A stretch of 64,000 nt of DNA, from assembly GCA_951812925.1 (NCBI GenBank), contig OX638369.1, positions 18,071,329-18,135,328 of the forward strand, read 5' to 3'. The DNA comes from Calliopum simillimum. Taxonomy: Eukaryota; Arthropoda; Insecta; Diptera; Lauxaniidae. The notes beneath the pieces are model-generated. The model made no database searches. It was not told where the DNA came from and saw only the letters and a program-made list of their open reading frames with translations. Below are positions 4,480-48,394 of this stretch, piece after piece (the first letter of the stretch is position 1; each line of letters opens with the position of its first letter). The position numbers were made by a program, and so were the translations under genes.

Positions 4480-5397
4480 TTGTATCACACGTTTACTCTA
4501 TGTGATAATACGCATCCGCAGAGACGTCGAACAGTGCGCACCGAAGAAACAATTGCCGCTGTAGAGCAAAATGTTGAAGAGGACCCGAATGAATCGATTC
4601 GCCACCGTGCACAGCAATTGGAGCTTTGTCCATCAACTTTATGGAAGATTTTGCGCAAAGATCTTGGCTTGCGACCTTACAAGATCCAGCTTGTGCAAGA
4701 ATTAAAGCCGCGAGACCATGCAATGCGTCGTGATTTTGGTGTATGGGCCGAAAATGAGATTGATCTCGATGCTGATTTTCATCGCAAATTTTTGTTCAGT
4801 GGTGAGGCTCATTTTTGGTTGAATGGCTACGTCAACAAGCAAAATTGCCACATTAGGAGTGAAGAGAATCCACATGAGACCCTTGAGACGCCATTACATC
4901 CACAAAAACTGACTATTTGGTGTGCTCTATGGGCTGGTGGAGTCATTGGGCCATACTTCTTCCGAAATAATGCTGGAGAGTCAGTTACCGTTAATGGAGA
5001 CCGGTATAGAGCCATGATAACCGACTATTTTGTTCCCGAATTGGATGGCATGAATGTGGATGAGTTGTGGTTCCAACAAGACGGCGCTACATGCCACACA
5101 GCGCACGTCACAATCGATTTATTGAAGGAAACATTCGATGAGCGCATAATTTCGCGGAATGGACCTGTCAATTGGCCACCAAGATCGTGTGATTTGACAC
5201 CATTGGATTATTTTCTTTGGGGATATGTGAAGTCGCTCGTCTACGCCAACAAACCAGAAACGTTAGGGGACTTGGAAGCCAACATTCGTGGCGTTATTGC
5301 CGACATACGGCCCCATATGCTCGAAAAAGTGGTTGAAAATTGGACCTGTAGAATTGGCTTTATTCGAGCCAGCCGCGGCGGCCACATGCCACATTGA
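4480..5397 (+). pseudogene. Mariner-like transposase with DD41D spacing (rosa-like), 5'-truncated, catalytic Asp lost
   Basis: The frame gives 305 residues of a Tc1/mariner-superfamily transposase, which would cut and rejoin the element ends in the nucleus. Residues 20-75 carry the end of the helix-turn-helix DNA-binding region. The catalytic core follows: FSGEAHFWLNGYVNKQN at about 106-122, QQDGATCHTA with D201, and CDLTPLDYFLWG with D243. There are 41 residues between D201 and D243. The DD41D spacing is known from the rosa group, first described in tephritid flies. The first catalytic Asp is Gly108 (GGT, one transition from GAT), so the protein should be inactive. The N-terminal DNA-binding half is missing, because no matching reading frame precedes about 4470. 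The first listed codon is not a real start. A probable 3' element end, AAAACACCCTTTA, lies at 5457-5469. Confidence 0.85.
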
Positions 5398-11386: not shown

Positions 11387-11931
11387 TGTTTACGTCCAAC
11401 GTAAACAGTGTGCATCCTGCATATCTGCCTGCCTTTGTGACCCGCCGCACAGCGCTGCTGTGGTTTACTCGTTGTATGAACAACGAGTAAAAATGACAAG
11501 TTAAAACTTGTCATTCTCTATAAAGAACTCTAATTTTGCAAGTCAGCGACCCTCGCAGTAAATTTAAAGTAAATTCTAAAGAAACACAGAAGCACAAAAA
11601 TCAACGTAGACTATCACATCAATCACAAAGAACATCAATAGACAGTAACGTAACCCAACAAACTACAGAGAAGAAGTCAACAGCACAATAGTACGTTCCA
11701 CAAGGCAGCTTGCAACGGTGGACAAAACCCTCGACATCGTTGGACAAGGCTCTGGAACACAGCAAGGATTTCGTAAACACATATATACAAACGTATCGTA
11801 AAGTATACACAAAATTGTACTCCGATTTCAATTTATTTCCCAAATCCAATTTGGTTATTTTTCTAATTGTGAATAAACTCTTATAACCATTTAGATTCTT
11901 GTGTCCGTTCATTTCACCCTTCACCCGTACA
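11387..11931 (+). repeat. 5' LTR of the first BEL/Pao element
   Basis: It starts with TGT and ends with ACA, and is 545 bp long. It holds AATAAA near 11873 as a likely polyadenylation signal. Two hairpins lie near its start: GTTTACGT with ACGTAAAC (11388-11407), and TTTACTCGTTG with CAACGAGTAAA (11464-11491). The 5' 90 bases have no counterpart in the 3' LTR. Confidence 0.8.
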
Positions 11932-12951
11932 TTTTGGTCCAGGCGAGCCGTCGAATTGAACAGCAGCACGGACGGACACAGACCCAGCAGCATCAACACA
12001 ACAATTTCGGAAAAAAACAGCACCCAAAAGGAAAATCAGTGAGTTTTGATTTCAAAAAGTGAATTTTTTCATCAAAATTGACTGTGCAAAAAGCATAATT
12101 CATCTTTTTGTGCAAACATTTTGAGACCCCGTATTTAAAGAATCATTTTCGGGTTGTATTCGTACCGAAAAAAGTTTCTTGAAACCCACTCAAACCCTTA
12201 AAAAATTTAATTTTAATTAGTCATTTTAATTGAAATTGAATTCGAGCTCAGCAAACCAAACCAAAATCAGTCATTTGTGCGTAAATTTTACATACATACG
12301 TGGTGGTGGTTGATTTGGTTTCTTTGCTGCTTGTATTCTTGCCGTTGGTTTTTTTTATATATAAAATACATACGTACATGAGAGCGTAAGTTTTGCATAA
12401 CTTAAATCGTGTTCTCAATTAGTGTTGCCAGATTGGTGCAAAAAAAAACCCTGAAAATTTTTTACCCGATTTTTGCCAAATTTTTACCCAAATTTTGGGA
12501 AGTCGTAAAAAATTATAAAATTTGTTAACCCTTTGTAGCCCTTTGGTGCTAAGTTGACCGATTTCGATTTTAAAGTGTTTTTATCCGCTTTTGACCCAAT
12601 ATTTACTGTTTTTTGGGAAATTTCGTACATTTACGACTTTTTCGATTCGCTTGACCCCTACTGTTGAAAACTTTTGTTTTGAAAAAATTTTTAACCCATT
12701 GTGACCCAACTATAAATAAAAAATTATTGATTTTTTTTGATTTTTTACCAATTTTGGTTAGAATCTTCAGTAAATCAAGGAAAGTTCGTAAAATTTTTCC
12801 ACTTAACCCATTTTCAATCAACCCGTTGTTAACAAATTCTTTATATTTGTTGAATTTTGTGGAAATTTTTTAGATTTCAGTTCTTTCTACTTTTTTTATT
12901 CAAACCCAAGCAATTTTTTGTTGAATTCTTCCAATTAAACCACTTTTTAAC

Positions 12952-14283
12952 ATGGAGGATTATTACAACTTCGCAAGAGACTTATTGGAGATGGAACGTA
13001 TTCACTCTGAGACACCCAGAGACCAATTGAATGTTTATGGCCTTAGGGGTGAAAAACAGCAGTTGGAATATCTATGGCAAAATTTTCAAACTTCTTATAG
13101 AGATGTTAGAAAACTCCCAGAAAAGGAAGCAGGAGATAAAGAGAAGGTGAAGAGGTTGTACCAAAAGACATGGCAAGCCTATTTAAGGTACTTTTCTTCG
13201 ATGGAGGAGTATTTAAGTCCAGTTAAAATGGAACAGCAATCACCCGTTGCTGCCCCAGCTCCTCCATGTACCCAAGACTTCCCTATCAGTGTTCCACCCT
13301 GCGATATCGATATTTTTTATGGCGATTATTTGAATTGGCCATCTTTTCGAGATTTATTCACTGCTCTCTACATCAACAACAAGCGATTGAGTAATGTGGA
13401 AAAATTGTTCCATCTCAATCAGAAGACCCGCGGTGAGGCTAGAGACATTGTGAAAATGGCTCCTCTAACCAATGACGGTTTTTGTTTAGCTTGGTTGAAT
13501 CTTGAAGACCAATACGAGAACAGTCGTATGCAGGTTAATCTGCAGCTAAAAACCCTTTTTGACTTGCCCGATGTAGACCCTAAGTTCAGTTCTTCAGTAA
13601 AGAAATTGCAACGTACTGTGAATAACTGCATATCGACACTTAAAACTTTGAAAATAAATACTGATAGTTGGGACCCGATACTAGTGTATCTTTGCTCCAC
13701 AAAGTTACCCAAAGCTTTCTTAGAAGATTTTGAAAAGTCATTAAGTGACCATTCAAAGAACCCGTCTTGGAAGGAATTCGACAGTTTCCTAGCCCGAAAG
13801 TTTAAAGACTTGATAGCCGTTGAAGACATTCATCGGTGTCGACCAAAGTCACAACCCAAGAGATTTGATAATGAATACCTGAACCCGAAGAACTCAAAAG
13901 CGGATACAGATATTAAAAGCTGTAGACTCTGCAATGGAGATCACACTCTTCGCGAGTGCCCGAGATTCATTGACATGAAAGTGGAAGAGAGAATCGATGC
14001 AGTGCAGCAATTGGGATGCTGCTTCAATTGTTTAGCGCTATCTCATGGAGTAAAAGAGTGCAACAGTGCTTACAGTTGTCGTTTTTGCAACAAAAGACAT
14101 AACTCATTAATTCACCAAAAAACATTAGACCCAGACTCAATACCCAGCACCAGTAAAGATGCAATATCAACAACCCAATCATTTTTGACCCGTACAATAC
14201 AGTCCACTGCTTATACGCCCCATAAGAAGAAAATTAAGAACCCATCAAGCAATATTAACGTCCTTGGAACAGCAATGGTATGA
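12952..14283 (+). CDS. gag: BEL/Pao Gag protein, cut off at the start of protease
   Basis: The 443-aa frame opens with ATG at 12952, preceded by AAC. Residues 1-100 are a charged, probably helical N-terminus. Residues about 118-290 form the DUF1759-type capsid region, recognised by PPCDIDIFYGDYLNWPSF and LFHLNQKTRGEARDIV. Three zinc knuckles follow: CRLC..DH....C at 324-336, CCFNC....H....C at about 359-372, and CRFC...H....H at about 378-390. These would bind element RNA in the virus-like particle. The last residues, LGTAMV (438-443), begin the aspartic protease (DUF1758) region. The stop codon is supplied by the truncated LTR. No internal stop or frameshift is visible, so Gag could still be made although Pol is absent. 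Its closest relative in the window is the Gag at 41560. Confidence 0.9.
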   Translation: MEDYYNFARDLLEMERIHSETPRDQLNVYGLRGEKQQLEYLWQNFQTSYRDVRKLPEKEAGDKEKVKRLYQKTWQAYLRYFSSMEEYLSPVKMEQQSPVAAPAPPCTQDFPISVPPCDIDIFYGDYLNWPSFRDLFTALYINNKRLSNVEKLFHLNQKTRGEARDIVKMAPLTNDGFCLAWLNLEDQYENSRMQVNLQLKTLFDLPDVDPKFSSSVKKLQRTVNNCISTLKTLKINTDSWDPILVYLCSTKLPKAFLEDFEKSLSDHSKNPSWKEFDSFLARKFKDLIAVEDIHRCRPKSQPKRFDNEYLNPKNSKADTDIKSCRLCNGDHTLRECPRFIDMKVEERIDAVQQLGCCFNCLALSHGVKECNSAYSCRFCNKRHNSLIHQKTLDPDSIPSTSKDAISTTQSFLTRTIQSTAYTPHKKKIKNPSSNINVLGTAMV

Positions 14284-14704
14284 ACAACGAGTAAAAATGA
14301 CAAGTTAAAATTTGTCATTCTTTTAATACAACGCAAAATAGCAAGTCAGCGAACCTTTTTGTTTAAAATTAAATTCAACATTAAAAACATTAAAATACAA
14401 TAACCCAACATACAATACAACACATAACACGCAGAACATTAGAAGACAACAGTGAACATCAACAACACAGTCAACAGTGAAATACTAGAACCAAACAACA
14501 CAACGGTGGACAACTTACTCTACATCGTTGGACTATTTGGACACACAATTCATCTTTTATAAAACGCAAATTGTACTGTAAAGTATAAATGACATTTTGT
14601 ATTTTATTTGCGTTTTACCCATATTCACATCTACTAATTTGTACAATAAACTCTTATAACGATTTAGATTTTTGTGTCCGTTCATTTCACCCTTCACCCG
14701 TACA
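14279..14704 (+). repeat. 3' LTR of the first BEL/Pao element, 5'-truncated
   Basis: It matches the 5' LTR from TATGAACAACGAG onward and ends ...CACCCGTACA. It keeps AATAAACTCTTATAAC near the end. It lacks the first 90 or so bases, so the internal deletion ran from the protease start into this LTR. The middle is strongly diverged from the 5' LTR. Confidence 0.8.
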
Positions 14705-14814
14705 GTTATGGTTTCGTTTTGTTAGTAATAAAGGTTAAAAAAACAACATATTAAATTATTTCTCTGCATTTTATGCAGCAAAACTTAGTGATTGTAATTC
14801 AGTTTACAGTAAAT

Positions 14815-33788: not shown

Positions 33789-33793
33789 AAAAC
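33789..33793. repeat. Target site duplication AAAAC of the second BEL/Pao element (left)
   Basis: AAAAC directly precedes the TGTTCAG of the 5' LTR and is found again directly after the ...TTTACA end of the 3' LTR (48390-48394). It also supports the scaffold join across the N gap. Confidence 0.75.
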
Positions 33794-34183
33794 TGTTCAG
33801 TTCCCGATGGCAATGCTTTTTTGTTATTATTTTTATTTACTTGTCAGCAGATGGCGCTGTAAATTATATTTTTAATTTAAATAGTTGGTAGCTTAAATTT
33901 AATGATTTGACAAATTTTGGCTTTATATTAAAAATGGTCACTTATTCCATGACGTTCAAGCTGGTAAGATCGCCATCCAAATAAAAAATCAAATTCATAT
34001 TTTTTCCAAATTTTACATAAATCTTTTATTTCATTTTTTTACGGTCATATAAAACTTTAACCTCATTTTGAGCTTGAAGTTTTATTGAATTTCAGAGACG
34101 ATTGGTTTTCCTCCCACTACTAGGCTACTGTCATCCAGACTCTCTTGGTATTTCATCCATCCACTAAAGATCACTCATTTACA
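33794..34183 (+). repeat. 5' LTR of the second BEL/Pao element
   Basis: It is 390 bp long, from TGTTCAGTTCCC to CTCATTTACA. It contains AATAAA near 33981. Compared with the 3' LTR it has one extra T, A and C in short homopolymers and, as far as I can read, no substitution. Confidence 0.92.
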
Positions 34184-34267: not shown

Positions 34268-34276
34268 CAGGTACGT
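34268..34276 (+). promoter_or_regulatory. Consensus splice donor CAG/GTACGT in the retrotransposon leader
   Basis: CAG (34268-34270) followed by GTACGT sits 87 bases after the LTR, the position of the major donor in retroviruses. Candidate acceptors are TTTCTAAG at 41550, just before the gag ATG, and TTTTATAG at 46869, just before the second ORF. Use of these sites is inferred. Confidence 0.5.
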
Positions 34277-35324
34277 TTGCATTATTTCGTTTAGTTCTTG
34301 AGAGATATTCCTTCCATGCACGTCGCGTAAGATTTTTGTTTGTTAGCGCCGCAGTAAAAAACGTGGTTCGATACATCATAAAAACGCGAAAAAAATTGGT
34401 TTCGGTATAAAATTTTGTGTTCGGAAATCTAAAATTCGTATTTAAGATAATATTCCCTCCGAAAAGTTAAAAAAAAAACGAACCTAAATTAGTAAAAAAA
34501 ACGGAAAAGTACATATAAAGTGGTTTCAGAAAAGCAAAAGTAGTTTCAGTGAAAAATATAGAAAAAATAGTTTAAAAATAGAAAGAAAAATACTTGCAAA
34601 GTAAAGAGATTTCAATCAAAAACATCAAAAAGTTAGTGATAGTGCTTTTTTCTATAGAAAAATTTGATTCCAGACAAAAAACATATATTCTAAAGAATGG
34701 CATTCCGGTGAAGCAACAATGTTTCGCAACTTTATCTTGTGCACAAGTCCAGTTGGCCTAAAATTTCGCCGCGTTGAATTGGTATTTTGCGAGCGCGAGA
34801 GAGTCTGACGAATACTCTGCTGTCATATTGGTTTTTATTTTGAGTTTCCCATTTGTGCACACACTCTGCTCTCTCTCTCTCTCAAATGTATAAATGTATT
34901 GAGGATCACGTGTAAATATAGGAAAAATCTTAAACATGTGTTAGTAAAATTTTAATTTTCATGTTTTTGTTGTACAACAAAACGAAAAAGTGTACTAAAG
35001 TAGTAGAAGTAGTGTCCTTTCAAAACTTTGATAAAATTGGTATTTTTTCATTTTCAATGAATGTGATGCCTACAGTCGGTATGTTATCAACTTATTTATA
35101 TGACAAAATGAATTTTATGGAGACTTAAGACGTAAACCTGGAATTCCAAACAAATCAAATTTAGTTCAACCAATATGTAATTATTTTGTATTTTTTTTTT
35201 TAATTGGTCCAAAAATCGAAGGATTGGCCTTCTTTGCTTATCATCGTTTTTTGTCGTAGAGGAGTTCCGATAAGATTTTTGAGTTCACAAGAAAGTGTTA
35301 TTTATTTTTATTTATTTATATTAA

Positions 35325-35354
35325 AATCCGTGCAACGCCGGGTAAAACAGCTAG
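35325..35354 (+). mobile_element. Helitron-like 3' terminus (left arm)
   Basis: ATCCGTGCAACGCCGGGT is followed by AAAACAG and CTAG, then T. A short GC hairpin a few bases before CTAG, at an A/T insertion point, is the known Helitron 3' end. The matching 5' TC end was not located, so only the terminus is called. The frame at 35204-35434 crossing it is not a gene. Confidence 0.5.
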
Positions 35355-35369
35355 TTAACTATAAAAAGT

Positions 35370-36270
35370 TAGTACAACTCTACATTAAAAATAATTGTAA
35401 CATTTTGCAAACCATTTTTTCTAAACTAATTTGAGGTCGCTGAACACGAAAATCTCACTTATTTTGTAGTAATTTTAGCCGTTCCCGAGTCATTCGGACA
35501 TTTCTATTTTCGAGATTATAGCTTCATATACATCAATATATTTGTATAACGCCAAATCCGATCGATTTTATTTGACCACGTTTACAAAAAATGACTAATG
35601 GCACTTCTAACGAGTGCACCAATGATTATGCTCCTAACAAAATTAACTGAGTTATAGCAAGAAAACTCAGATTTTTTAAAAAATTTTTTAAATTTTTCAG
35701 ATCAAAGTAAAATGAAACACTTAGTTTTCCGCATATATCGTTTCCAAAAAATTATTTCGCAGTTTTATACAATGGTACATTTAATTGCAAACATTTTAAG
35801 CTTATGCTGAGCAAAATCAAATAAAATTTCGAGAAGATATTAAGGTTTTAGTGCAATGGAGACATTTCGATTTCTTCCAAAAATTTGTATTTTTGACACA
35901 ATTGCAACATGATCCTCAATGTTCTTCTACAGAAAATGATATAAAATTTTAAAAAATTTTTACAAAAATCGAAGTTTTTCTTGCTATCGTTCATTCAGTT
36001 TTGATCGGAGCATAATTATTGGTATACTTGTTAGAAGCGCCATTACTCAGCCTTTGTAAAAGTGACAAAATAACATCGATCGAACTTGGCGTTATACAAA
36101 TATATTGACGTATATGAAGCTATAACCTCGAAAATAAAAATGTCAAAATAACTCGAAAATGCTCCAAAGGAATAAAAAATAAGTGGGCTGAGTCGCTGAG
36201 GCTCCAAATTAGTTTAGAAAAAAAAAAATAGTTTGCAAAATGTTACAACTATTTTGAATTTACTGTTTTA
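35370..36270. repeat. Nested imperfect palindrome inside the left arm
   Basis: The block 35385-35720 is the imperfect inverse of 35925-36260. TTGTAACATTTTGCAAAC pairs with GTTTGCAAAATGTTACAA, and AGCTTCATATAC..CAATATATTTGTATAACGCC recurs inverted. The arms are visibly diverged from each other, unlike the outer arms. It is a foldback MITE captured inside the larger inverted repeat, and its copy is at 38706-39606. Confidence 0.7.
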
Positions 36271-36682
36271 GTCACTTTTTATAGTAATTGCTTAAATAAA
36301 GAGTAAATCTAATGCACTGACAAATTTTTGATAAAATTTTATAGTATGAAAAAAAAGCCCACCTTTTTATGTGTATTACCTTTTTATGTGTATTACCTTA
36401 CGTTAAAGACCGATAAACTTTCAGGACACCAAGAATCTCAAAATCGGTTTGTAGTTTCCTTGCGAATTTCAGCCTGAGAGTTAGGGTTTTTTTAAATTTT
36501 TGTCAAATACGGCTTTTTTTGAGTATGAGCGACTGTATACCCTAAATACCGTAAAAAATGTGTACTATTATATCCCAAAAACTGTAGGAAACATATTTTG
36601 CTATATTTTGTCCCTGATAGTCATCTTTCCACAGCTAACAGTTTGTGCGCTAGAGGCCGAGTTTCATTAAAAAAAACCGAAT

Positions 36683-36882
36683 NNNNNNNNNNNNNNNNNN
36701 NNNNNNNNNNNNNNNNNNNNNNNNNNNNNNNNNNNNNNNNNNNNNNNNNNNNNNNNNNNNNNNNNNNNNNNNNNNNNNNNNNNNNNNNNNNNNNNNNNNN
36801 NNNNNNNNNNNNNNNNNNNNNNNNNNNNNNNNNNNNNNNNNNNNNNNNNNNNNNNNNNNNNNNNNNNNNNNNNNNNNNNNNN
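36683..36882. other. Assembly gap of 200 N
   Basis: Exactly 200 unknown bases, a round placeholder length, so the true distance is unknown. It lies at the inner end of the left arm, the kind of place where assemblers break at long inverted repeats. Confidence 0.98.
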
Positions 36883-38705
36883 AATGTTTCGCAACTTTAT
36901 CTTGTGCACAAGTCCAGTTGGCCTAAAATTTCGCCGCGCTAAATTGAAATTTTGCGAGCGCGAGAGAATCCGACGAGATTCTGTAAGGCAACTGAGAAAT
37001 ACTCTGCTGTCATATTGGTTTTTTTTTTGAGTTTCTCATTTGTGCAGATCTCTCTCATACATTGCGGTAGAAATTTAAAAATTTCAACAAAATAAGTATT
37101 TTTCATTTTTCAATGAATGAGAAGCCTACAGTCGGTATTTTTTCAACTTATTTAAATTGCAACATGATCAAATAGAATCAAAAAACTTTACAATTGGATT
37201 AATTAAGCGCTTTAGATTTAGAAAATTATATGTATAAATGGGCTATTCCACGCAAGAAAAATACATTTTATTTTTGTAATTTCTTAATGATTCTTTATTA
37301 AAAAATTTCTAATTGGTACGTTTTCTTTAATTTTAAGTTTTGGACAGAATTAGCAGAGCAAGGTATAATTTTTGTACTTAATTAATTAATTAAATTTACT
37401 TGAAAGTTAAGAGTTTAAGCTCTATAGAAAAAATATGTTCTATAAAAATCGGGTAAAAATTCACCGCGCTTAGGCCGATATCATCACTTTTTTCGCATAT
37501 GTCACATAGTCTTTTAAGTCAAAATACGAATTTTAGGGATATAATATTTTTTTTATCAAAATTGCATAAAAATTCTTTTCCAGACAAAAAATATAAGTTA
37601 ATAATGACGGTAATTTGAAGTTTCTATGACCCAAAATGTGCAAGCTAAAAAGCAATTTTATTCAGAAGTGGATTCTCATATGATATTTGACTCTTACCAT
37701 ATCTTTGAAATGATCATTGCTATTAAATAAAAAAATAACATACAACCGTTTTGAGGCTCATTTTGAATACGAAGAATTGTGCTAAATGATGCACTTAGTA
37801 GAAAATATCAAAACCATTTCCTGCGTAATCTATATAACCTCAAAAAATCGGTTTTTTAACTTTAGGTTAGAATATCCCAAAAGCCATAAGCGACAAAGCA
37901 ATTCTGAGACCAAATTCAAATTCAGCATTTCAAATGTACCGTTTTTCGACCTTTTTCAAAAATCAGTCGTTAAATTTATATTAAAAACATTTTTTTTTTA
38001 TTCAGTCAGTGCTCACCAGTAATTTGACACCTTTTCTTGGAGTTCACAGTTTTTATATACTCTGTGATACAAAAAAATAACCAAAAATTATATCTGCACA
38101 ATAAAAATATATTCTCATATCTCTCTCTTATAACTTTCTCTTAACTCTTTTATCTTGCGAAAATTCCAACCGATTCCTTATTCAAAGACCACGTTTGAAG
38201 CTTTTAACTTTTTCTTATGTTCCCTTCTAAAATTTTTGGAAAATTTGTAAGCAAAAATATCAAAAGGTCGCTTCAAAATAAAAATTTAAAAAAATTCGGT
38301 TTTTTTTAATGAAACTCGGCCTCTAGCGCACAAACTGTTAGCTGTGGAAAGATGACTATCAGGGACAAAATATAGCAAAATATGTTTCCTACAGTTTTTG
38401 GGATATAATAGTACACATTTTTTACGGTATTTAGGGTATACAGTCGCTCATACTCAAAAAAAGCCGTATTTGACAAAAATTTAAAAAAACCCTAACTCTC
38501 AGGCTGAAATTCGCAAGGAAACTACAAACCGATTTTGAGATTCTTGGTGTCCTGAAAGTTTATCGGTCTTTAACGTAAGGTTATACACATAAAAAGGTAA
38601 TACACATAAAAAGGTGGGCTTTTTTTTCATACTATAAAATTTTATCAAAAATTTGTCAGTGCATTAGATTTACTCTTTATTTAAGCAATTACTATAAAAA
38701 GTGAC

Positions 38706-39606
38706 TAAAACAGTAAATTCAAAATAGTTGTAACATTTTGCAAACTATTTTTTTTTTTCTAAACTAATTTGGAGCCTCAGCGACTCAGCCCACTTATTTT
38801 TTATTCCTTTGGAGCATTTTCGAGTTATTTTGACATTTTTATTTTCGAGGTTATAGCTTCATATACGTCAATATATTTGTATAACGCCAAGTTCGATCGA
38901 TGTTATTTTGTCACTTTTACAAAGGCTGAGTAATGGCGCTTCTAACAAGTATACCAATAATTATGCTCCGATCAAAACTGAATGAACGATAGCAAGAAAA
39001 ACTTCGATTTTTGTAAAAATTTTTTAAAATTTTATATCATTTTCTGTAGAAGAACATTGAGGATCATGTTGCAATTGTGTCAAAAATACAAATTTTTGGA
39101 AGAAATCGAAATGTCTCCATTGCACTAAAACCTTAATATCTTCTCGAAATTTTATTTGATTTTGCTCAGCATAAGCTTAAAATGTTTGCAATTAAATGTA
39201 CCATTGTATAAAACTGCGAAATAATTTTTTGGAAACGATATATGCGGAAAACTAAGTGTTTCATTTTACTTTGATCTGAAAAATTTAAAAAATTTTTTAA
39301 AAAATCTGAGTTTTCTTGCTATAACTCAGTTAATTTTGTTAGGAGCATAATCATTGGTGCACTCGTTAGAAGTGCCATTAGTCATTTTTTGTAAACGTGG
39401 TCAAATAAAATCGATCGGATTTGGCGTTATACAAATATATTGATGTATATGAAGCTATAATCTCGAAAATAGAAATGTCCGAATGACTCGGGAACGGCTA
39501 AAATTACTACAAAATAAGTGAGATTTTCGTGTTCAGCGACCTCAAATTAGTTTAGAAAAAATGGTTTGCAAAATGTTACAATTATTTTTAATGTAGAGTT
39601 GTACTA
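38706..39606. repeat. Nested imperfect palindrome inside the right arm
   Basis: It mirrors the element at 35370-36270 as part of the inverted arm. It has the same internal arms, with TTGTAACATTTTGCAAAC at 38730 and the inverse near 39563. Confidence 0.7.
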
Positions 39607-39621
39607 ACTTTTTATAGTTAA

Positions 39622-39651
39622 CTAGCTGTTTTACCCGGCGTTGCACGGATT
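39622..39651 (-). mobile_element. Helitron-like 3' terminus (right arm)
   Basis: This is the inverse of the terminus at 35325-35354. CTAG at 39622-39625 is followed by CTGTTTT and ACCCGGCGTTGCACGGAT. It is a duplicate carried by the inverted arm, not an independent insertion. Confidence 0.5.
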
Positions 39652-40302
39652 TTAATATAAATAAATAAAAATAAATAACACTTTCTTGTGAACTCAAAAA
39701 TCTTATCGGAACTCCTCTACGACAAAAAACGATGATAAGCAAAGAAGGCCAATCCTTCGATTTTTGGACCAATTAAAAAAAAAAATACAAAATAATTACA
39801 TATTGGTTGAACTAAATTTGATTTGTTTGGAATTCCAGGTTTACGTCTTAAGTCTCCATAAAATTCATTTTGTCATATAAATAAGTTGATAACATACCGA
39901 CTGTAGGCATCACATTCATTGAAAATGAAAAAATACCAATTTTATCAAAGTTTTGAAAGGACACTACTTCTACTACTTTAGTACACTTTTTCGTTTTGTT
40001 GTACAACAAAAACATGAAAATTAAAATTTTACTAACACATGTTTAAGATTTTTCCTATATTTACACGTGATCCTCAATACATTTATACATTTGAGAGAGA
40101 GAGAGAGCAGAGTGTGTGCACAAATGGGAAACTCAAAATAAAAACCAATATGACAGCAGAGTATTCGTCAGACTCTCTCGCGCTCGCAAAATACCAATTC
40201 AACGCGGCGAAATTTTAGGCCAACTGGACTTGTGCACAAGATAAAGTTGCGAAACATTGTTGCTTCACCGGAATGCCATTCTTTAGAATATATGTTTTTT
40301 GT

Positions 40303-41559
40303 ACAAACTAACAATTCTCTTTTTTGTTTCTACCTTTAATGTGTTCCAATTTATTAAAGTGTTCCTTACTTAACACTGCTAGAGAAAAAGGTCAATGAAC
40401 CTTTTTTTGGTTTGCATGCAATTTCGTTCTGCAATCTGCATGTTCCAAATTCCGGATTTTCCTATTTGAATTAAACATTATAAGAACAAATATTTTTTCT
40501 CATAACTATTTTCGATACAGCAAAAGTGAAAAGATAAATAAAAGCAAAAATCAAAATAAAATTAAGTGAGACAAATACTAAAAAAAAAAAAGTAATAAAA
40601 ATTTGATAAGATTAATCTACAAAATAAATAAATTTTTTTTGCGAAGATAATTTTGGTCTCCTTTTGCATGATAAAATTAAAGTGAAATCAATATTCAGCT
40701 TAAATTCCTTTTGTAAAAACTTAGCGTTCAAAATAATATCGAAATTTCTCAAGTTAAAATATTATGTTATAAATTATTCTGCAATATTTAAAAATTCAGA
40801 ATTTTTAATGTAACGCTGCATACGAGTTTGTTTTGCTGATAAAAGTGAGTCAAGGCTGAAATACGTCGAATATCGGTTTTTTTTCCTTCAAAAAAAACGA
40901 ACTGAATTAAAACTATTTTCCTAAAATTTTGTTGTGTATCTTTGTATAACGCGAAGTTTTGTATCGTGCATTTCTGTGGCTTTGAGTGAGCATAATCAAA
41001 ATACTTTTGATTGTGCTTATTTTTTCCTAAGAATTTTAAATCGTATCTCAAAATTCTTTTTTTTCTTCTTCGAAAAATTGGGTTAATTTTATAAAAACGC
41101 GATTTCTTTAATTTGTTTAAAGGAAAAATTTATAATTTTTTGGAAAAAAAAAAAAGAAAATTTCTGGTCTTCATAAGTGATTATCGCTTTGAAGAATTTC
41201 GAAGATTTAAATTTATTTTCAACTCAGTTCTCGGTAGTTCGTGGACCATTCAAGCTCGTAATTCTTTAACCAATTTGACGGGACAGTTCACATTGGAGTT
41301 TTCTTTATTTTGTTTAAAAGGCATTTCGCTTAGCTCATAATTTCTCAGAATTCTCTTGGTTTATCTACATATATCAATAAGTAGATTAGTCGCCTTTTAT
41401 TGAATCCTTTCCATAGCTTTGATAATCATTTTGCATTCTTTTTGATACAACTCTTTTCCAACATCTTATATCCTTTATTTGGTTTGTGAGATCTACATAG
41501 AGTCGCTCTTTTTCCTTATTTTCGCTCCAATTGTTTTTTTCGTTTCTAAGATTGTCGAA
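40303..41559 (+). other. Leader of the second BEL/Pao element, downstream part
   Basis: AT-rich, noncoding sequence between the palindromic insertion and the gag start. Poly-T followed by TTTCTAAG at 41534-41550 could serve as a splice acceptor nine bases before the ATG. The minus frame at 40788-41051 and plus frame at 41113-41340 show no protein features. Confidence 0.6.
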
Positions 41560-44500
41560 ATGTCCTCTTTAGAAACGTTCATTTTGATGTCTGATAGACT
41601 AGTTGAATTTGAAAATGACTTCAACCAACTCACAGCGCAGGATTTTTCCATTCACTCACTAGAAGTTCACAAGGATGAAGTTCGATCGCTCTGGGATCAA
41701 GCAAAATCTGCGTACAATGTAACCTTACGTGAGTTTTCTGCAACAAAAGCTGGAACCGAGGGAGATGACACTGATGAGACTGATCTGGAGTCAATAAAGT
41801 CTAAGTACCACAATACCTATCTTGCGTATGTTCGTTGCGTTGGAAAAATCGGTGAGCTTATCCAAGGGCTCACTTTGGTAACCAACCCGCACATAGAGGC
41901 CAGACCCCTTGACTCCCAAGGAAGTAACTTTCGATTACCACCATGTGATATGGAACTTTTTAATGGAGACTATTTATCTTGGCCGTCTTTCCGAGATATG
42001 TTCACAGCTATATACATTAACAACTCCAGATTGAGCTCAGTAGAAAAATTATTTCATCTAAATCAGAAAACGCGTGGCGAAGCACGAGACATCGTTAGGA
42101 AAGCCCCTTTGACCAACGAAGGTTTTGGTTTAGCTTGGACGAATCTTAAAGATAGATTTGAGAACAAAAGAATTCTTGTTAACAGTCAATTAAGGATTCT
42201 TTTTAGCCTTAGTCCAGTCACATCCGAATGTGGTACTGCCCTCAAAAAGCTCCAGCGTGATATACAAGGGTGTATATCCGCTCTTAAACTATACAATATT
42301 GAAATTCAAAATTGGGATCCTATTTTTATTTTCCTTTGCTCTAGTCGCCTTCCAGATGCGACGCTTGCACTCTGGGAGCAGTCCCTTAAAAGCAAAACTA
42401 CAATTCCGACTTGGGAAGAACTAGATAATTTCCTGACTAGTAGGTACCAAACTCTCGAGACTGTTTCAGATATTAAAAGTTCAGTCAGCTCCAAGGCTGT
42501 TAATAACAAGTCTAGTTGTTCAAATTCCAATTCAAATACTAGCAACACAAATCGTAATTCATCGCGTAAAGTTAACACATACCATACTAACATGGCAAGT
42601 CCTAAATGTAACATATGCATGAAAGAACAGCATACCATTCGAAATTGTCCACAGTTCTTACGAATGAGTACAAATGAACGATTAGCTTCTATTAAAAAGT
42701 TAGGCCTGTGTATTAATTGCTTTGCCCGATCGCACTCTGTAAAAGAATGCAAAAGTTTGCACAACTGCTTCAAGTGTAGTAAGAGGCATAACACTTTTTT
42801 ACACCATGAGTCCAATTCATTGAATAATTCTCAATCTCCTCAAAGTTCGAATACTCAAAGGTCTCATGCTACTCAATTACAGTCCACTGAATCCCCCAAT
42901 CTTCCAGATACCGTGCAAACTTGCTTCGCATCTAGTTCGAAGAGAATTCTTTTGGGTACAGCAATTGTACAAATATGCCACTTAGGCATTTCATACGCTG
43001 CACGCGCACTTATTGATTCCGGGTCTGAAGCAACGTTCATTTCCGAAAAGCTTTTCAAACGCTTAAAGCTACCATATAGATCCGTGCAAGCTCAAGTTTC
43101 AGGCTTGAATAATACTGTTTCGGCTAAAGCACAGAAAGTTTCTTCATTCGTGTTGCGGTCCCCTAATGATGCAGCAATCCAAATTGAGACATCTGCTCTA
43201 GTTATTCCCCAGCTTACTGATAATCTTCCTACACACACCGTCGATTCTGCAATCATAGAAAAACTTCCTAATATAACTCTTGCTGATGTAGAATTTTATA
43301 GGAGCTCACCAATCGATATTTTAATCGGTGGTGATCTATTTCCAGTGGTTTTGCTTGATGGCATTAAACGCAATATTTGCGGCTCTTTAGTTGCACAAGA
43401 AACCATTTTTGGGTGGATCTTAACAGGTCCAATTACAAACGCTAAAGTATCTTCTTTAGCTACATGTGTTTCATTCTTCAATGAAGTTACGCTAGATTCA
43501 GATATTTGCCGTTTTTGGGAGGTGGAGGATCTTCCCAAAAAACATATGGCAACACCATCCGAGAGTTTTTGCAAAGATTTGTTTGTAAAAACAACAAAAA
43601 GAAATGAAGATGGACGATATGTAGTTTCACTTCCATTCAAAGAAGGCTATCCACAAAATATCAATATTGGTCATTCCCGTGCAATTGCCAATGCACAATT
43701 TTTAAGGAATGAAATCCGCCTCAGCAAAACCCCGGAGTTCAAGACTCAATACGATGATGTAATCCGAGAATACATCGATTTAGGTCACATGAAAGCGGTT
43801 TCCCCTCCAATTTATTCCCATTTTCCAAATAATTACTACATGCCACATCATGCAGTTACTAAGCCCGAAAGTACCACTACGAAAATTCGAGTAGTTTTTA
43901 ATGCTTCATGTCCTGCCTCTAATGGGGTAAGTCTAAACGATATTTTGCATGTAGGCCCAGTGCTACAATCTGATTTAACACTGTTAATATTGAAATGGCG
44001 CTTTTATCGCTTCGTCTTTAACAGCGATATCCAAAAAATGTATCGACAGATTCTTGTGGACCCCAGCCATACTCCATTTCAAAGAATTCTTTTTCGAAAT
44101 TCACCTCAAGGTAATATCCAAGATTTTGAGCTCCTTACTGTAACATTCGGTGTTAACTGCGCTCCATATTTGGCCATCCGTACACTATTGCAGTTAGCAG
44201 AAGATGTTCAGGAAACTTATCCTTTAGCCAGCAACATTTTACGTAATTCCATGTACGTTGATGATGCGTTGGCAGGTAGTCATGATTTGTCCTCGTCTAT
44301 TCAAGCAAGAGATGAGCTGATTGCCGCGCTCGCATCAGCAGGTTTTTCACTACGAAAATGGACGTCGAATTCTCAAGATATTCTCAACGGGCTTCCACGT
44401 GAACATTTGCTTACTGAAGATTTTCTTCAACTTGCTGATTGTAGCAATGCTAAGACTTTAGGCGTAAAATGGAATGCTAAGTCAGACGAGTTTTATTTTT

Positions 44501-46815
44501 CCACAAAGGCTCTTGAGCATAAGGCAACCTTCACTAAACGTGATGTCCTATCTCAAATTTCAAAATTATTCGATCCCGCTGGCTGGTTGGCACCCTGCAT
44601 CGTTTTGGCAAAAATCCTTATGCAGCAGATATGGCTATCCAAAATTGGTTGGGACGAAAATTTGACTCAAAACTGTCTGCAAACCTGGCATCAATTTCTG
44701 GATAGTTATACGCACATAAATCGTATAAAAATCCCTCGATGGGTCCATTTCTCTCCTGAGTCTGACATTGAATTTCACGCATTCTGTGATGCGTCAGAGA
44801 AAGCTTATGCTGCCACGATATACGTTCGTATTCGCACGACATCAGATTCTGTTCACACTTATTTACTGGCTGCCAAAACAAAGGTGGCACCAGTGAAAAC
44901 TATATCCATTCCAAGACTTGAGCTATGCGGAGCTGTGCTGTTAGCGGAAATGGTTGATGCCGTAGTTCCGCTCCTCGAAATCGAAAAATATAAAATTTAC
45001 TTCTGGACAGATTCAACCATAGTACTCGCTTGGTTACAAAAACCGCCATGTCAATGGCAAACATTCGTGGCAAATCGAGTATCGAAGATTGTACAGCTTG
45101 TTGGTATAGAAAATTGGTTTCATGTTAATTCTAAGGCTAATCCAGCCGACCTTGGTAGTCGAGGCCTTTTGCCCCAAGAGCTAGTGGATAACGAACTCTG
45201 GTGGCACGGCCCGCATTGGCTTAAACTTGATCCTATCCAGTGGCCAAGTTCTCGTGACTCTTCGAAACATGACACTGATATTGAGAAAAAGGCAATTAAA
45301 TCGAATTTTACCTTTTTTGATAGCTTCGAAGATATCCTTGATCGATTTTCGTCATATGACAGGGCTATGAAAGTCATCGCATATGTTATTAGGTTTTTCC
45401 ACCGCTCTCATCCTGTGCATCGGCAAAACTTTCGTTTTGATTCAGAGCTATTGACGAGCTCAGAAATAAAGGGCGCTCGAGATCGTCTTATACTTTTAAT
45501 TCAAAAAGTGACGTTTCCGTCAGAGTATCATGCACTTTCAAACAAGAAACAAATTTCAAAATCTAGTCCATTACTAAACTTAAATCCTTTTATTGATTCT
45601 GCTGGAATACTTCGAGTTTGTGGTCGACTTATTCACTCTCCTACATTATCCTATGATGAGCGGCATCCGATTATCCTACCCTACAATTGTGCATTGACTC
45701 GATTGTTAGTTCAATTTACACATCGAAATTCACTTCACGGAGGCAATGAATTGGTCCTCAAACTTATACGTCTACAATTTTGGATACCTAGGATCAAAAA
45801 TCTTATAAAATCAACTATCCATAATTGTAAGATTTGCGTTGTTCAAAGAAAACAGATTCAAACTCAATTGATGGGGACTTTGCCACCAGAAAGGACAGTC
45901 CTATCTCGTCCATTTGAGCATACAGGCTTAGATTTTGCTGGGCCGTTTGAAATCAAAAACTTCACTGGTAGAGCCTGCTTGATTACCAAGGGTTATGTTT
46001 GTGTGTTCGTGTGTTTTTCTACAAAGGCTATACATTTAGAAGCGACTAGCACTCTCTCCACACCAGCCTTCCTCGCAGCCTTCAATCGTTTCGTTTCACG
46101 ACGCGGCTGCCCTCTACATTTATACTCCGATAACGGAAAAACATTTGTCGGAGCTTCGAAAGAGTTAGAGCGCCACTTCTTTCAAGCTTCACGTTCTGCA
46201 ATCCTTTCGAATTTCCATCACCTTCACATAACATGGCATTTTATTCCTCCAGGTGCCCCACACATGGGTGGGCTATGGGAAGCTGGCGTCAAAAGCTTCA
46301 AGACGCATTTCAAAAAGGTTGCAGGGTCTTTTAAGTTTACTTTTGAGGAGCTATCGACAATATTAGCAAAAATTGAAGCATGCCTGAATTCAAGGCCGAT
46401 CTCCACAATGTCTGAAAATCCAAATGACATTACAGCATTAACTCCTGGACATTTCCTAGTTGGTAGTCCACTTTTAGCTCCTATAGAACCGCAAATTCAA
46501 CAGCAGCCTATATCCATAATAAATAGATGGCAACGACTTACAGCAATACAACAACAACTGTGTTCTCGTTGGAAAGAGGAATATTTGAAGGAACTCCATA
46601 AGCGCAACAAATGGAAAACACCACAGGAAAATATAGGACTTGACTCGATTGTAGTAGTTCGTGATGAAAATCTCCCTCCAAACGAATGGCGTTTAGGTCG
46701 CGTTTGTAAGGTCTATTGCGGAAAAGATAACTTAGTTCGCGTCGCGGATGTAATAACAGAGCGAGGTCCAATAACGCGTCCGATCGTCAAGCTCGTTCTC
46801 CTCCCTACAAACTAA
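41560..46815 (+). CDS. gag-pol: BEL/Pao Gag-Pol polyprotein, intact
   Basis: One uninterrupted 1751-codon frame. I chose ATG 41560 because the frame's upstream extension has no ATG. Domains in order: DUF1759 capsid (about 115-300, PPCDMELFNGDYLSWPSF); zinc knuckles (CNIC...H....C from 350, then CINC and CFKC); aspartic protease DUF1758 with Asp-Ser-Gly at 486-488; reverse transcriptase with Asp823 and YVDD at 899-902; RNase H with Asp1077, Glu1121, Asp1151 and Asp1197; integrase zinc region (H...H...C..C, about 1390-1425); integrase core with Asp1458, Asp1524 and Glu1574; and a C-terminal DUF5641-type domain ending ITRPIVKLVLLP. All catalytic residues I can check are present. The protein would package, copy and integrate the element. 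The other BEL Gag in the window (12952) is similar through the capsid and knuckles. Intact coding plus near-identical LTRs imply a recent insertion. Confidence 0.96.
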   Translation: MSSLETFILMSDRLVEFENDFNQLTAQDFSIHSLEVHKDEVRSLWDQAKSAYNVTLREFSATKAGTEGDDTDETDLESIKSKYHNTYLAYVRCVGKIGELIQGLTLVTNPHIEARPLDSQGSNFRLPPCDMELFNGDYLSWPSFRDMFTAIYINNSRLSSVEKLFHLNQKTRGEARDIVRKAPLTNEGFGLAWTNLKDRFENKRILVNSQLRILFSLSPVTSECGTALKKLQRDIQGCISALKLYNIEIQNWDPIFIFLCSSRLPDATLALWEQSLKSKTTIPTWEELDNFLTSRYQTLETVSDIKSSVSSKAVNNKSSCSNSNSNTSNTNRNSSRKVNTYHTNMASPKCNICMKEQHTIRNCPQFLRMSTNERLASIKKLGLCINCFARSHSVKECKSLHNCFKCSKRHNTFLHHESNSLNNSQSPQSSNTQRSHATQLQSTESPNLPDTVQTCFASSSKRILLGTAIVQICHLGISYAARALIDSGSEATFISEKLFKRLKLPYRSVQAQVSGLNNTVSAKAQKVSSFVLRSPNDAAIQIETSALVIPQLTDNLPTHTVDSAIIEKLPNITLADVEFYRSSPIDILIGGDLFPVVLLDGIKRNICGSLVAQETIFGWILTGPITNAKVSSLATCVSFFNEVTLDSDICRFWEVEDLPKKHMATPSESFCKDLFVKTTKRNEDGRYVVSLPFKEGYPQNINIGHSRAIANAQFLRNEIRLSKTPEFKTQYDDVIREYIDLGHMKAVSPPIYSHFPNNYYMPHHAVTKPESTTTKIRVVFNASCPASNGVSLNDILHVGPVLQSDLTLLILKWRFYRFVFNSDIQKMYRQILVDPSHTPFQRILFRNSPQGNIQDFELLTVTFGVNCAPYLAIRTLLQLAEDVQETYPLASNILRNSMYVDDALAGSHDLSSSIQARDELIAALASAGFSLRKWTSNSQDILNGLPREHLLTEDFLQLADCSNAKTLGVKWNAKSDEFYFSTKALEHKATFTKRDVLSQISKLFDPAGWLAPCIVLAKILMQQIWLSKIGWDENLTQNCLQTWHQFLDSYTHINRIKIPRWVHFSPESDIEFHAFCDASEKAYAATIYVRIRTTSDSVHTYLLAAKTKVAPVKTISIPRLELCGAVLLAEMVDAVVPLLEIEKYKIYFWTDSTIVLAWLQKPPCQWQTFVANRVSKIVQLVGIENWFHVNSKANPADLGSRGLLPQELVDNELWWHGPHWLKLDPIQWPSSRDSSKHDTDIEKKAIKSNFTFFDSFEDILDRFSSYDRAMKVIAYVIRFFHRSHPVHRQNFRFDSELLTSSEIKGARDRLILLIQKVTFPSEYHALSNKKQISKSSPLLNLNPFIDSAGILRVCGRLIHSPTLSYDERHPIILPYNCALTRLLVQFTHRNSLHGGNELVLKLIRLQFWIPRIKNLIKSTIHNCKICVVQRKQIQTQLMGTLPPERTVLSRPFEHTGLDFAGPFEIKNFTGRACLITKGYVCVFVCFSTKAIHLEATSTLSTPAFLAAFNRFVSRRGCPLHLYSDNGKTFVGASKELERHFFQASRSAILSNFHHLHITWHFIPPGAPHMGGLWEAGVKSFKTHFKKVAGSFKFTFEELSTILAKIEACLNSRPISTMSENPNDITALTPGHFLVGSPLLAPIEPQIQQQPISIINRWQRLTAIQQQLCSRWKEEYLKELHKRNKWKTPQENIGLDSIVVVRDENLPPNEWRLGRVCKVYCGKDNLVRVADVITERGPITRPIVKLVLLPTN

Positions 46816-46844: not shown

Positions 46845-46869
46845 CTTTCATTGTTTATTCCTTTTATAG
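46845..46869 (+). promoter_or_regulatory. Probable splice acceptor before the 3' ORF
   Basis: A pyrimidine-rich tract with TTCGCCTTTCATTGTTTATT, then CCTTTTATAG ending at 46869, lies seven bases before the ATG at 46877. It fits a 3' splice site delivering this ATG as the first one on a subgenomic mRNA joined to the donor at 34271. This is inferred from sequence only. Confidence 0.5.
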
Positions 46870-46876
46870 TCTAATC

Positions 46877-47728
46877 ATGCCACGTTTCATAAAAAACAGA
46901 GCAGCTCCTCGTAGTCAAATTCAGGAACGATTAACCATCGTCCGTGATCCAGCAAGAAGCAGGAACAAATTTGCTTGTCGTATCTGTCAAAAGCATCATG
47001 CCTTGAGAGTGTGCCCAACATTCATAGAAATGAATACCGAGCAGCGAATGCGCGCGGTTCTACTACATAAGTACTGCTCAAACTGCCTAGCGCATCAGCA
47101 TTCCGGTAATACTTGTCGTAGCAATCAAGGCTGCCATCATTGCAAGCAATCTCACCATACTATGCTGCATATGCACGAACGGTTACATACAAAGAATTCG
47201 CTGATTGCACCAAGCTCCACTTCGTCACAGCCAGTAAACATTGCTTCCATTATAGCGCAACATGCAATAGTTTTGTTTCCAACAGCGCTGGTCCGAATTC
47301 AAACTGGTGCGAAATTGCACTTTGCAAGAGCACTTCTGGATCCTTGTATAGCAGTTAGCCGCATATCCAGCGATTTAGTTAAAGATTTATGCGTTCCAAC
47401 TACAGAGATCAATAATGATCGAGTATGTTCCGTGGTCATCCGAGCACATTCCAATCTTCACATCAAACTTGAGGTCACTTTCCAAGTGCTCAATAGAATA
47501 TCCCTTAAAACACCGTCCAAATCGTTGGACGCCAAAATTAAACAAAATTTCTCCAATAGCATATTAGCCGATCCTAATTTTGACCGTTGCGCTCCAGTAC
47601 AACTGGTTTTGGGTGCTGATGTTTATCCAAAAACAATTTTATCTGGGGCAATTCCAAGTTCTGGTGGTCTTCCGCTAGCCCAAAATACCGTCTTCGGATG
47701 GGTTCTTTCGGGATCTTGCTCCACATAG
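46877..47728 (+). CDS. Accessory ORF: zinc knuckles plus degenerate protease-like domain, in env position
   Basis: A 283-aa intact frame begins 61 bases after the gag-pol stop, in a different reading frame. Three zinc knuckles match Gag in spacing: C34..C37...H41....C46, C67..C70....H75....C80, and C86..C89...H93....H98. A DUF1758-like region follows, from about 130 to the C-terminus. It aligns with the element's own protease through RALLDPC (151-157), QLVLGADVYP and NTVFGWVLSG near the end. The protease catalytic Asp-Ser-Gly is Asp155-Pro-Cys157, so proteolysis is unlikely. There is no signal peptide, membrane segment or glycoprotein feature, so it is not an envelope protein. The N-terminus is basic (KNRAAPRSQ). 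It looks like a diverged duplicate of the nucleocapsid-protease part of Gag-Pol. It might bind RNA, aid assembly, or limit copy number as truncated Gags do elsewhere. None of these is shown. Confidence 0.85.
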   Translation: MPRFIKNRAAPRSQIQERLTIVRDPARSRNKFACRICQKHHALRVCPTFIEMNTEQRMRAVLLHKYCSNCLAHQHSGNTCRSNQGCHHCKQSHHTMLHMHERLHTKNSLIAPSSTSSQPVNIASIIAQHAIVLFPTALVRIQTGAKLHFARALLDPCIAVSRISSDLVKDLCVPTTEINNDRVCSVVIRAHSNLHIKLEVTFQVLNRISLKTPSKSLDAKIKQNFSNSILADPNFDRCAPVQLVLGADVYPKTILSGAIPSSGGLPLAQNTVFGWVLSGSCST

Positions 47729-48002
47729 GGTCGTTATAATAAATATAAAATAAAAAATAAAAAAAAAAAAACAAACAAATCGCGTTGAATAAAAATATTT
47801 CTCTCAAGAATTGAATCCTATTTAGAAATGCAAACGTAGCCTTTTTAACGTTAAAATAGTTTTAAGATATTTTGAATTACAAACAATATTTTATACTTAC
47901 ATAAAAAAGAAAACAAATGAATTTAAAATATGAATTAATCATTCCTTAGACTTAAATTATTTACTGCATTTTCTTGCAGCAATACTGCAAGGCGGGCGGC
48001 GA

Positions 48003-48389
48003 TGTTCAGTCCCGATGGCAATGCTTTTTTGTTATTATTTTTATTTACTTGTCAGCAGATGGCGCTGTAAATTATATTTTTAATTTAAATAGTTGGTAGC
48101 TTAAATTTAATGATTTGACAAATTTTGGCTTTATATTAAAAATGGTCACTTATTCCATGACGTTCAAGCTGGTAAGATCGCCATCCAAATAAAAATCAAA
48201 TTCATATTTTTTCCAAATTTTACATAAATCTTTTATTTCATTTTTTTACGGTCATATAAAACTTTAACCTCATTTTGAGCTTGAAGTTTTATTGAATTTC
48301 AGAGACGATTGGTTTTCTCCCACTACTAGGCTACTGTCATCCAGACTCTCTTGGTATTTCATCCATCCACTAAAGATCACTCATTTACA
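48003..48389 (+). repeat. 3' LTR of the second BEL/Pao element
   Basis: 387 bp, from TGTTCAGTCCC to CTCATTTACA, preceded by purine-rich AAGGCGGGCGGCGA. It is nearly identical to the 5' LTR and is followed by the AAAAC duplication. Confidence 0.92.
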
Positions 48390-48394
48390 AAAAC

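Follow-up and report, generated by a model that had tools for sequence, protein, structure and literature searches.

Why should a BEL/Pao retrotransposon carry, behind its pol gene, a further open reading frame that resembles the nucleocapsid-protease segment of its own Gag-Pol protein? The question is raised by a stretch of 64,000 nucleotides from the fly Calliopum simillimum (Diptera, Lauxaniidae; assembly GCA_951812925.1, contig OX638369.1, forward-strand positions 18,071,329 to 18,135,328), hereafter the window, in which a BEL/Pao element hosts an accessory gene of 283 codons, here called ORF2, between the pol stop (46815) and the 3′ long terminal repeat (LTR; 48003). The answer favoured in the following, with moderate confidence, is that ORF2 is a conserved extra BEL/Pao gene, expressed by splicing, and that its product would be an RNA-binding auxiliary nucleocapsid with a dead-protease binding module. 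Its features, numbered from the first letter of the window, are:

46877..47728, + strand: accessory gene ORF2, 283 residues; an open frame of 283 codons from an ATG, with protein family matches
46976..47170, + strand: three ORF2 zinc knuckles, residues 34-46, 67-80 and 86-98; conserved ligand columns
47264..47716, + strand: flapless retropepsin-like domain of ORF2, residues 130-280
47339..47347, + strand: D-P-C replacing the catalytic D-S/T-G, residues 155-157, from the sequence

The initial annotation of this DNA had reported a 283-codon frame located after the pol stop and before the 3′ LTR, and the frame is indeed open from the ATG at 46877 to 47728; the span given for it began at 46845, 32 bases 5′ of the ATG, and this additional stretch lies outside the frame and contains a likely 3′ splice site. 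The parts that had been described, i.e. three zinc knuckles, a protease-like domain aligned through to FGWVLSG, and an Asp-Pro-Cys motif (residues 155-157), are all present: after a short start come the knuckles, which a linker joins to a retropepsin-like domain whose end lies 4 residues past FGWVLSG. The 12 Cys/His ligand columns of the knuckles are conserved among the aligned ORF2-like sequences, and likewise in the Gag-Pol ones; the protein is basic (calculated isoelectric point, pI, 9.8), and the linkers of its relatives are, by eye, rich in arginine and serine. RNA binding, put forward early as a likely role, is supported as a prediction from the sequence. The view of ORF2 as an intact accessory protein also stands, the protein being conserved; it matches no Pfam family at an expect value (E) of 1 or below, hence no envelope family. 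Among 18 ORF2 members searched against Pfam, no family was matched by more than one member at E≤0.1, and four proteins searched against NCBIfam gave no match; the best match in the PDB by sequence profile (E 0.029) was a Gag nucleocapsid chain.

How ORF2 relates to Gag-Pol is the first point to be settled. ORF2 aligns with residues 377-650 of the element's own Gag-Pol (BLASTP E 5e-36, 276 columns) with 30% identity, too low for a duplication inside the young window copy. A single-protein search of about 5.8 billion proteins gave 30 matches at E≤1e-3; the 17 closest relatives were aligned (226-335 residues; P0003 and P0018 start after the first knuckle, and P0019 ends early), 14 of them spanning all three knuckles and the protease-like domain, and a profile search from this alignment found 141 proteins. 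The matches listed, i.e. the best 120 of the 141, come from many Drosophila species, Haematobia, Lucilia, Bactrocera, Rhagoletis, Ceratitis and Eurosta, genera that belong to several fly families; D. simulans is among the species with ORF2 relatives, and the name of D. melanogaster does not occur among those best 120. Among the viral contigs of IMG/VR, 29 pattern matches were obtained and none was confirmed.

When 251 proteins, both window proteins included, were scored against an ORF2 profile and a Gag-Pol profile, 101 were nearer ORF2, 149 nearer Gag-Pol and 1 neither, and 14 positions are mostly fixed for differing residues in the two sets. In a first tree, made of 50 of the 60 non-redundant ORF2 sequences and 50 of the 97 Gag-Pol sequences, with the window's own included and the three active-site columns excluded, the 50 ORF2 sequences fall on one side of a single branch with a Shimodaira-Hasegawa-like approximate likelihood-ratio (SH-aLRT) support of 100, and 42 Gag-Pol sequences, the named ones being from flies, group without ORF2 (support 98); in a second tree 57 ORF2 sequences likewise fall on one side of a branch (SH-aLRT 99). 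This grouping indicates that ORF2 is not recently derived from the sampled fly Gag-Pol sequences, the exact attachment of ORF2 in the tree being unsure on account of long branches; with one branch separating the ORF2 from the Gag-Pol segments, the duplication or capture dates far back. A recent self-duplication of the Gag-Pol segment is ruled out by the 30% identity together with the tree split, and on the same grounds the initial claim that the element duplicated its own nucleocapsid-protease segment is not supported. ORF2 is, as far as these sequences tell, a separate and old protein family.

Is this family a family of transposon genes? Many of the relatives bear LOC numbers and names of host proteins, as if ORF2 were a domesticated host gene unrelated to transposition, a reading that deserves almost no weight in the light of its position. 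The genome from which the window was taken (690 Mb, 334 contigs), when searched with the ORF2 protein, gave at least 163 matches. The eight at 98-100% identity are all full-length, open and at different genome places, and 27 of the 30 best are stop-free (stops occur in L009, L027 and L030). A pol end lies upstream of ORF2 in 50 of 50 loci, namely the 30 best, all fetched, and 20 chosen representatives of more distant groups. That these loci all lie behind a pol end, that the near-identical copies are dispersed, and that the window copy has LTRs and a target-site duplication (TSD) speak against a host gene. Where both ends are clear, the gap from the pol end to the ATG is mostly below 100 bases, and 105-253 in L044-L047 and L049. 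One subfamily (L044, L046 and L047) combines a gap of 214-253 bases behind pol with N-P-A for D-P-C and a Cys-rich start, SSASCHCC.

The association was also examined from the side of pol. At least 60 of the best 77 among 150 pol matches have an ORF2 match within 1.6 kb downstream (the pol C-terminal search gave 1499 candidates, of which 150 were scored). This is a lower bound, given that the best 77 pol places were compared with part of the listed ORF2 places. Arranged by pol identity, the fraction is 8/8 at 99-100%, 23/23 at 79-84%, 3/4 at 71-77% and 26/42 at 65-69%. Seven pol copies with no listed ORF2 match (3 of the 17 misses and 4 from lower in the pol list) were read, and all seven encode ORF2, six as one open frame and one broken across two frames, so that part of the misses at least reflects a limit of the search; altogether, ORF2 stands behind pol in all 57 places read in this genome. 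Elsewhere, Gag-Pol and ORF2 are fused in eight gene models, which come from Haematobia, Stomoxys and Cochliomyia, and D. simulans and D. kikkawai have one model each joining pieces of the two. On this sequence evidence ORF2 is no peculiarity of the window copy and is found across a whole clade of BEL elements in flies. Furthermore, pol identity and ORF2 identity correlate (r 0.76, 28 pairs from 8 elements, permutation p 8e-4) in a set made of the window element and seven of the eight fused models (P0081, whose ORF2 part is disrupted, was excluded), which agrees with a long joint travel of the two genes; horizontal moves between flies may also have occurred.

A further arrangement is seen in L063 (1-1349) and L064 (1-1335), where the pol end is in frame with ORF2, apparently with loss of the stretch corresponding to Gag-Pol residues 1400-1687; in this group an open frame of 1207-1209 is found in several ORF2 matches, and it probably represents a non-autonomous family that retains ORF2.

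Whether the frame is maintained by selection was assessed with a Nei-Gojobori script on the full ORF2 frames of 27 of the 30 loci (L009, L027 and L030 were excluded for their stops), which form six clusters, the tests being simple counts of synonymous and nonsynonymous changes rather than codon models. Between clusters, the nonsynonymous divergence (dN) is 0.21-0.30, and the synonymous divergence (dS) exceeds the range of the method in 13 of the 15 pairs and is 2.1-2.4 in the other two: purifying selection on ORF2 between subfamilies is strong. Within families, the synonymous and nonsynonymous counts are 21 and 14 in subfamily D (6 copies, p 3e-6) and 4 and 6 in subfamily C (10 copies, p 0.18); pooled, they are 33 and 33 (p 2e-6 against neutrality), a result carried by subfamily D. 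Some pol counts of subfamilies C and D (out-of-frame copies) and one 'within B' value (mixed subfamilies) were not used. The initial annotation had pointed to dN/dS and to frame integrity among genomic copies as the means to recognize a passive duplicate. The 8/8 open near-identical copies, the 27/30 stop-free matches and the low dN at saturated dS answer that doubt between subfamilies, and inside the young window family selection is not significant (p 0.09). A duplicate drifting passively after insertion could draw on that value, on the one for subfamily C and on the stops in 3 of the 30 best matches; it is scarcely credible given that ORF2 has been kept across saturated dS, that the pooled test rejects neutrality and that the frame was found behind pol in 7/7 copies read. 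Because it recurs intact in several fly groups, ORF2 probably benefits the element instead of being a remnant.

What, then, has become of the protease-like half? In the structural model of ORF2 (mean predicted local distance difference test score, pLDDT, 67.6; 75-93 per ten residues over residues 131-260), residues 131-281 match Ddi1 and retroviral proteases, i.e. the retropepsin fold is predicted to be present. The site of the flap is a short turn in this model, 13 residues short, and a long hairpin in the model of the window's Gag-Pol protease. Accordingly, the spacing from the active-site Asp to the Cys behind the flap is 30 residues in 80/90 ORF2 domains and at most 32 in 89/90 (the exception is P0175), versus 43 in 136/149 Gag-Pol sequences, none of which has fewer than 39. 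Position three of the triad holds Gly in 142/150 Gag-Pol sequences (here, as in the spacing count, the window segment is contained twice) and Cys in 86/90 ORF2-like ones, 87/90 of which retain the Asp. All three columns are present in 97 ORF2 domains, of which 64 show D-P-C, 12 D-A-C, 5 D-S-G or D-T-G and 16 some other motif; the window copy has D-P-C, not the D-S/T-G of an active retropepsin. D-x-C had been considered as a family-wide mark and was dropped for the 5 exceptions, found in fused calyptrate models; because these members keep D-S/T-G, the mark common to the family is the short flap region and not the triad.

We conclude, from sequences and models, that catalysis would be lost in most members and is doubtful in the rest; residual activity may persist in the five D-S/T-G domains. 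It is very improbable that ORF2 is, in general, still a flapless aspartic protease with a substrate of its own: retention of the Asp in most sequences and of the whole motif in the five calyptrate members would agree with it, and the change of the triad Gly to Cys in most sequences, the N-P-A and N-P-C members and the short flap region of 89/90 domains speak against it. As a separate observation, P0231 from Lucilia sericata, a Gag-protease protein and not an ORF2, also has D-P-C in place of D-S-G.

The element that hosts ORF2 has the following further parts:

33789..33793, + strand: left copy of the target-site duplication AAAAC, in the flanking sequence
33794..34183, + strand: 5′ LTR, 390 bp, TG...CA, aligned to 48003-48389
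34674..40302, no strand assigned: insertion-like stretch in the leader, with inverted arms of about 2 kb that are 99.95% identical and a 200-base N gap between the arms, from self-comparison
41560..46815, + strand: Gag-Pol frame from the first ATG (open frame from 41479), from the frame and Pfam
42607..42798, + strand: Gag-Pol zinc knuckles, residues 377-440, from the sequence and the BLASTP alignment
42946..43443, + strand: Gag-Pol protease with D-S-G and a long flap hairpin, from Pfam Asp_protease_2 and model md6a4fd77c54f (strands E168-176/E182-195)
47989..48002, + strand: purine-rich tract ahead of the 3′ LTR, from the sequence
48003..48389, + strand: 3′ LTR, 387 bp, from its alignment with the 5′ LTR
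48390-48394, + strand: right copy of AAAAC

The two LTRs align over their full length with no substitution and 3 single-base gaps, and AAAAC lies on both outer sides, so that the window copy is a young insertion. In a single frame, Gag-Pol matches DUF1759, Asp_protease_2, Peptidase_A17, Integrase_H2C2 and DUF5641; triple Cys-His boxes, protease, a Peptidase_A17 reverse transcriptase (RT) region and integrase, along with the LTR pair and the TSD, place the element in BEL/Pao. The distance from the LTR to the expected gag start is about 7.4 kb in the window and about 2.1 kb in another copy (L051); the window leader contains the insertion-like stretch of about 5.6 kb with inverted arms, which may be a nested insertion or an assembly artefact. 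Because this insertion occupies the leader, no LTR was found in the span first searched (38001-41560), and the pair was recovered by comparison of the whole window.

How a frame behind pol could be expressed is suggested by two signals, scored with a simple weight matrix:

34268..34276, + strand: likely leader 5′ splice site CAG/GTACGT, ranked first among the 651 GT sites of the element
46845..46876, + strand: pyrimidine-rich stretch ending in a likely 3′ splice site (AG at 46868-46869), with a similar layout in other subfamilies

The donor lies 87 bases past the 5′ LTR, and the acceptor, TATAG/TCTAATCATG, 7 bases ahead of the ORF2 ATG. Among other copies, 12 leader pieces were collected and two dropped (L054, with no LTR pair, and L061, with low-complexity matches only); in 9/10 of the resulting leaders a donor with at least 6 of 7 consensus letters is found within 350 bases, a limit set after the positions were known, compared with 0.3 expected in random sequence of matched dinucleotide steps. 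Acceptor-like ends recur in diverged subfamilies whose surrounding sequence differs. Five loci (L032, L033, L039, L046 and L047) do not have their last YAG 0-11 bases ahead of the first in-frame ATG; in L032, L033 and L039 the true start seems to be downstream of that ATG. The recurrence of donor and acceptor signals points to a spliced subgenomic mRNA as the most likely source of ORF2.

The role proposed for ORF2 can be outlined as follows. ORF2 descends from a nucleocapsid-protease segment copied long ago and is now a regular additional gene in one clade of fly BEL/Pao elements. Splicing of the leader beside the 5′ LTR to the acceptor just ahead of the ATG would yield the ORF2 mRNA; the three zinc knuckles of the protein would bind RNA, that of the element foremost, and its flapless retropepsin fold, no longer cutting, would serve as a protein-protein module, in a self-dimer or with the Gag-Pol protease. 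Made apart from Gag-Pol, the protein would join genomic RNA and particles in trans, as an auxiliary nucleocapsid.

Several points weigh against this proposal. The particle role draws on the knuckles and on analogy. In the window family (8 copies), ORF2 counts are 8 synonymous and 13 nonsynonymous, short of significance, and those of pol in the same copies are 18 and 17 (p 3e-4); in subfamily C, too, pol is significant (9 copies, 10 and 6, p 6e-4), so that in these two families pol looks more constrained than ORF2 over short times. D-S-G or D-T-G is retained in five ORF2 domains of fused models from Haematobia, Stomoxys and Cochliomyia, and at the opposite end the Asp itself is lost in a few of the 45 loci of the window's genome with the motif found (51 examined), which have N-P-A in 3 and N-P-C in 1. 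As for splicing, the acceptor is not the top-scoring AG (rank 8 of 400 sites outside the insertion, 17 of 682 overall), one of the ten leaders has no strong donor near the LTR, two come from the window family, and the count of 21/26 loci with the last YAG 0-11 bases before the first in-frame ATG is without a chance control.

Retropepsins act as dimers, and the flap and the triad take part in the dimer contact. This has a bearing on a different, unlikely but by no means negligible, explanation, in which ORF2 limits its own element, mixing with Gag or pairing, as an inactive partner, with the Gag-Pol protease so as to curb assembly or maturation as copies rise. A protein derived from a Gag-Pol segment, apparently made separately, and with its fold retained while catalysis is altered would suit such a function, and p22, a piece of Gag, is reported to restrain Ty1 (PMC4599808). 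An identity of about 30% to the would-be partner and the altered flap and triad count against it, as does the abundance of the clade in the genome (150 pol matches scored of 1499 candidates), which does not suggest strong restraint. Slightly less likely again is the idea that the clade depends on a self-encoded pseudoprotease, where ORF2 pairs with the Gag-Pol protease, holds the genomic RNA and times or limits maturation; were it true, this would apparently be the first retroelement in which a separate gene encodes a dead protease dedicated to regulation. Retroviral regulators have a spliced-leader layout, and this layout in ORF2, with the zinc knuckles, the high pI and the arginine/serine-rich linkers, could indicate a Rev-like protein, made from spliced RNA only, which would bind the genomic RNA in its unspliced form and help it to be exported, translated or packaged. 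We regard this as more doubtful still, since it would leave the retained retropepsin fold without explanation. In summary, an auxiliary nucleocapsid appears the most likely role, followed by a self-limiter or a partner of the protease, with a Rev-like regulator third.

Two other frames of the window deserve mention. At 12952-14283 (+ strand) a 443-residue BEL Gag-like frame with three knuckles, 36.6% identical to Gag-Pol residues 5-497, stops at the start of the protease; because it is flanked by two pairs of short direct repeats (79-81 bp, 86-91%, within 11474-11938 and 14278-14712), it may be a gag-only non-autonomous element. The open frame of 305 codons at 4480-5397 (+ strand) resembles, by reading of the frame, a Tc1/mariner-type transposase.

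If BEL/Pao elements are described as gag-pol with an occasional env, as in the parts of the literature consulted, a conserved extra gene means that such descriptions miss part of the life cycle. ORF2 also offers a natural experiment on the uses of a retropepsin fold that does not cut, and its role can be tested because D. simulans and further species with relatives can be reared in the laboratory. In the literature searched, as far as the accessible passages go and with repeat consensus libraries outside the search, no description of a second nucleocapsid-protease gene in BEL/Pao was found: one frame is shown for a Pao element of Calliphora (PMC3630058), an olive-fly BEL element as isolated lacks the 3′ end (PMC4580426), and the available passages of a paper on D. 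virilis transposons mention no such frame (PMC12910113).

Comparison with known systems places ORF2 as follows. The element shares with BEL/Pao (Belpaoviridae) the triple Cys-His boxes, protease, RT, integrase, LTRs and short TSD, but the extra gene described there, in the passages seen, is env, not a second nucleocapsid-protease gene: the BEL/Pao survey gives it for a few elements (PMC3118150), and the Sinbad paper, which also reports the triple Cys-His box, for the Tas group (PMC554778). Like p22/p18 of Ty1, ORF2 is a separate product from Gag sequence of an LTR retrotransposon; unlike these, as far as the passages on them show, it is a gene of its own that has diverged and includes a protease-like half. 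The identity to part of Gag and the origin in an alternative transcript that mark a p22-type restraint factor are not seen in ORF2, which is only 30% identical to the corresponding segment of its own Gag-Pol. The sORF1 and sORF2 of the MDG1 group (Drosophila Metaviridae) are likewise accessory frames of insect LTR elements devoid of env, but, in the parts of PMC11952523 available, they are of about 110 and 70 residues, precede gag (or, in some Lepidoptera, follow pol), show no sign of splicing and include, in sORF2, a membrane protein likened to fusogens. The ORF3s of bdelloid rotifers are also additional to gag and pol in LTR elements, but are described, in the passages seen of PMC5408684, as Env-like, GDSL esterase or DEDDy exonuclease, and not as a nucleocapsid-protease copy. 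With Ddi1 and the retroviral proteases, finally, ORF2 shares the predicted fold of residues 131-281, and differs from them in its shortened flap region and its D-P-C triad.
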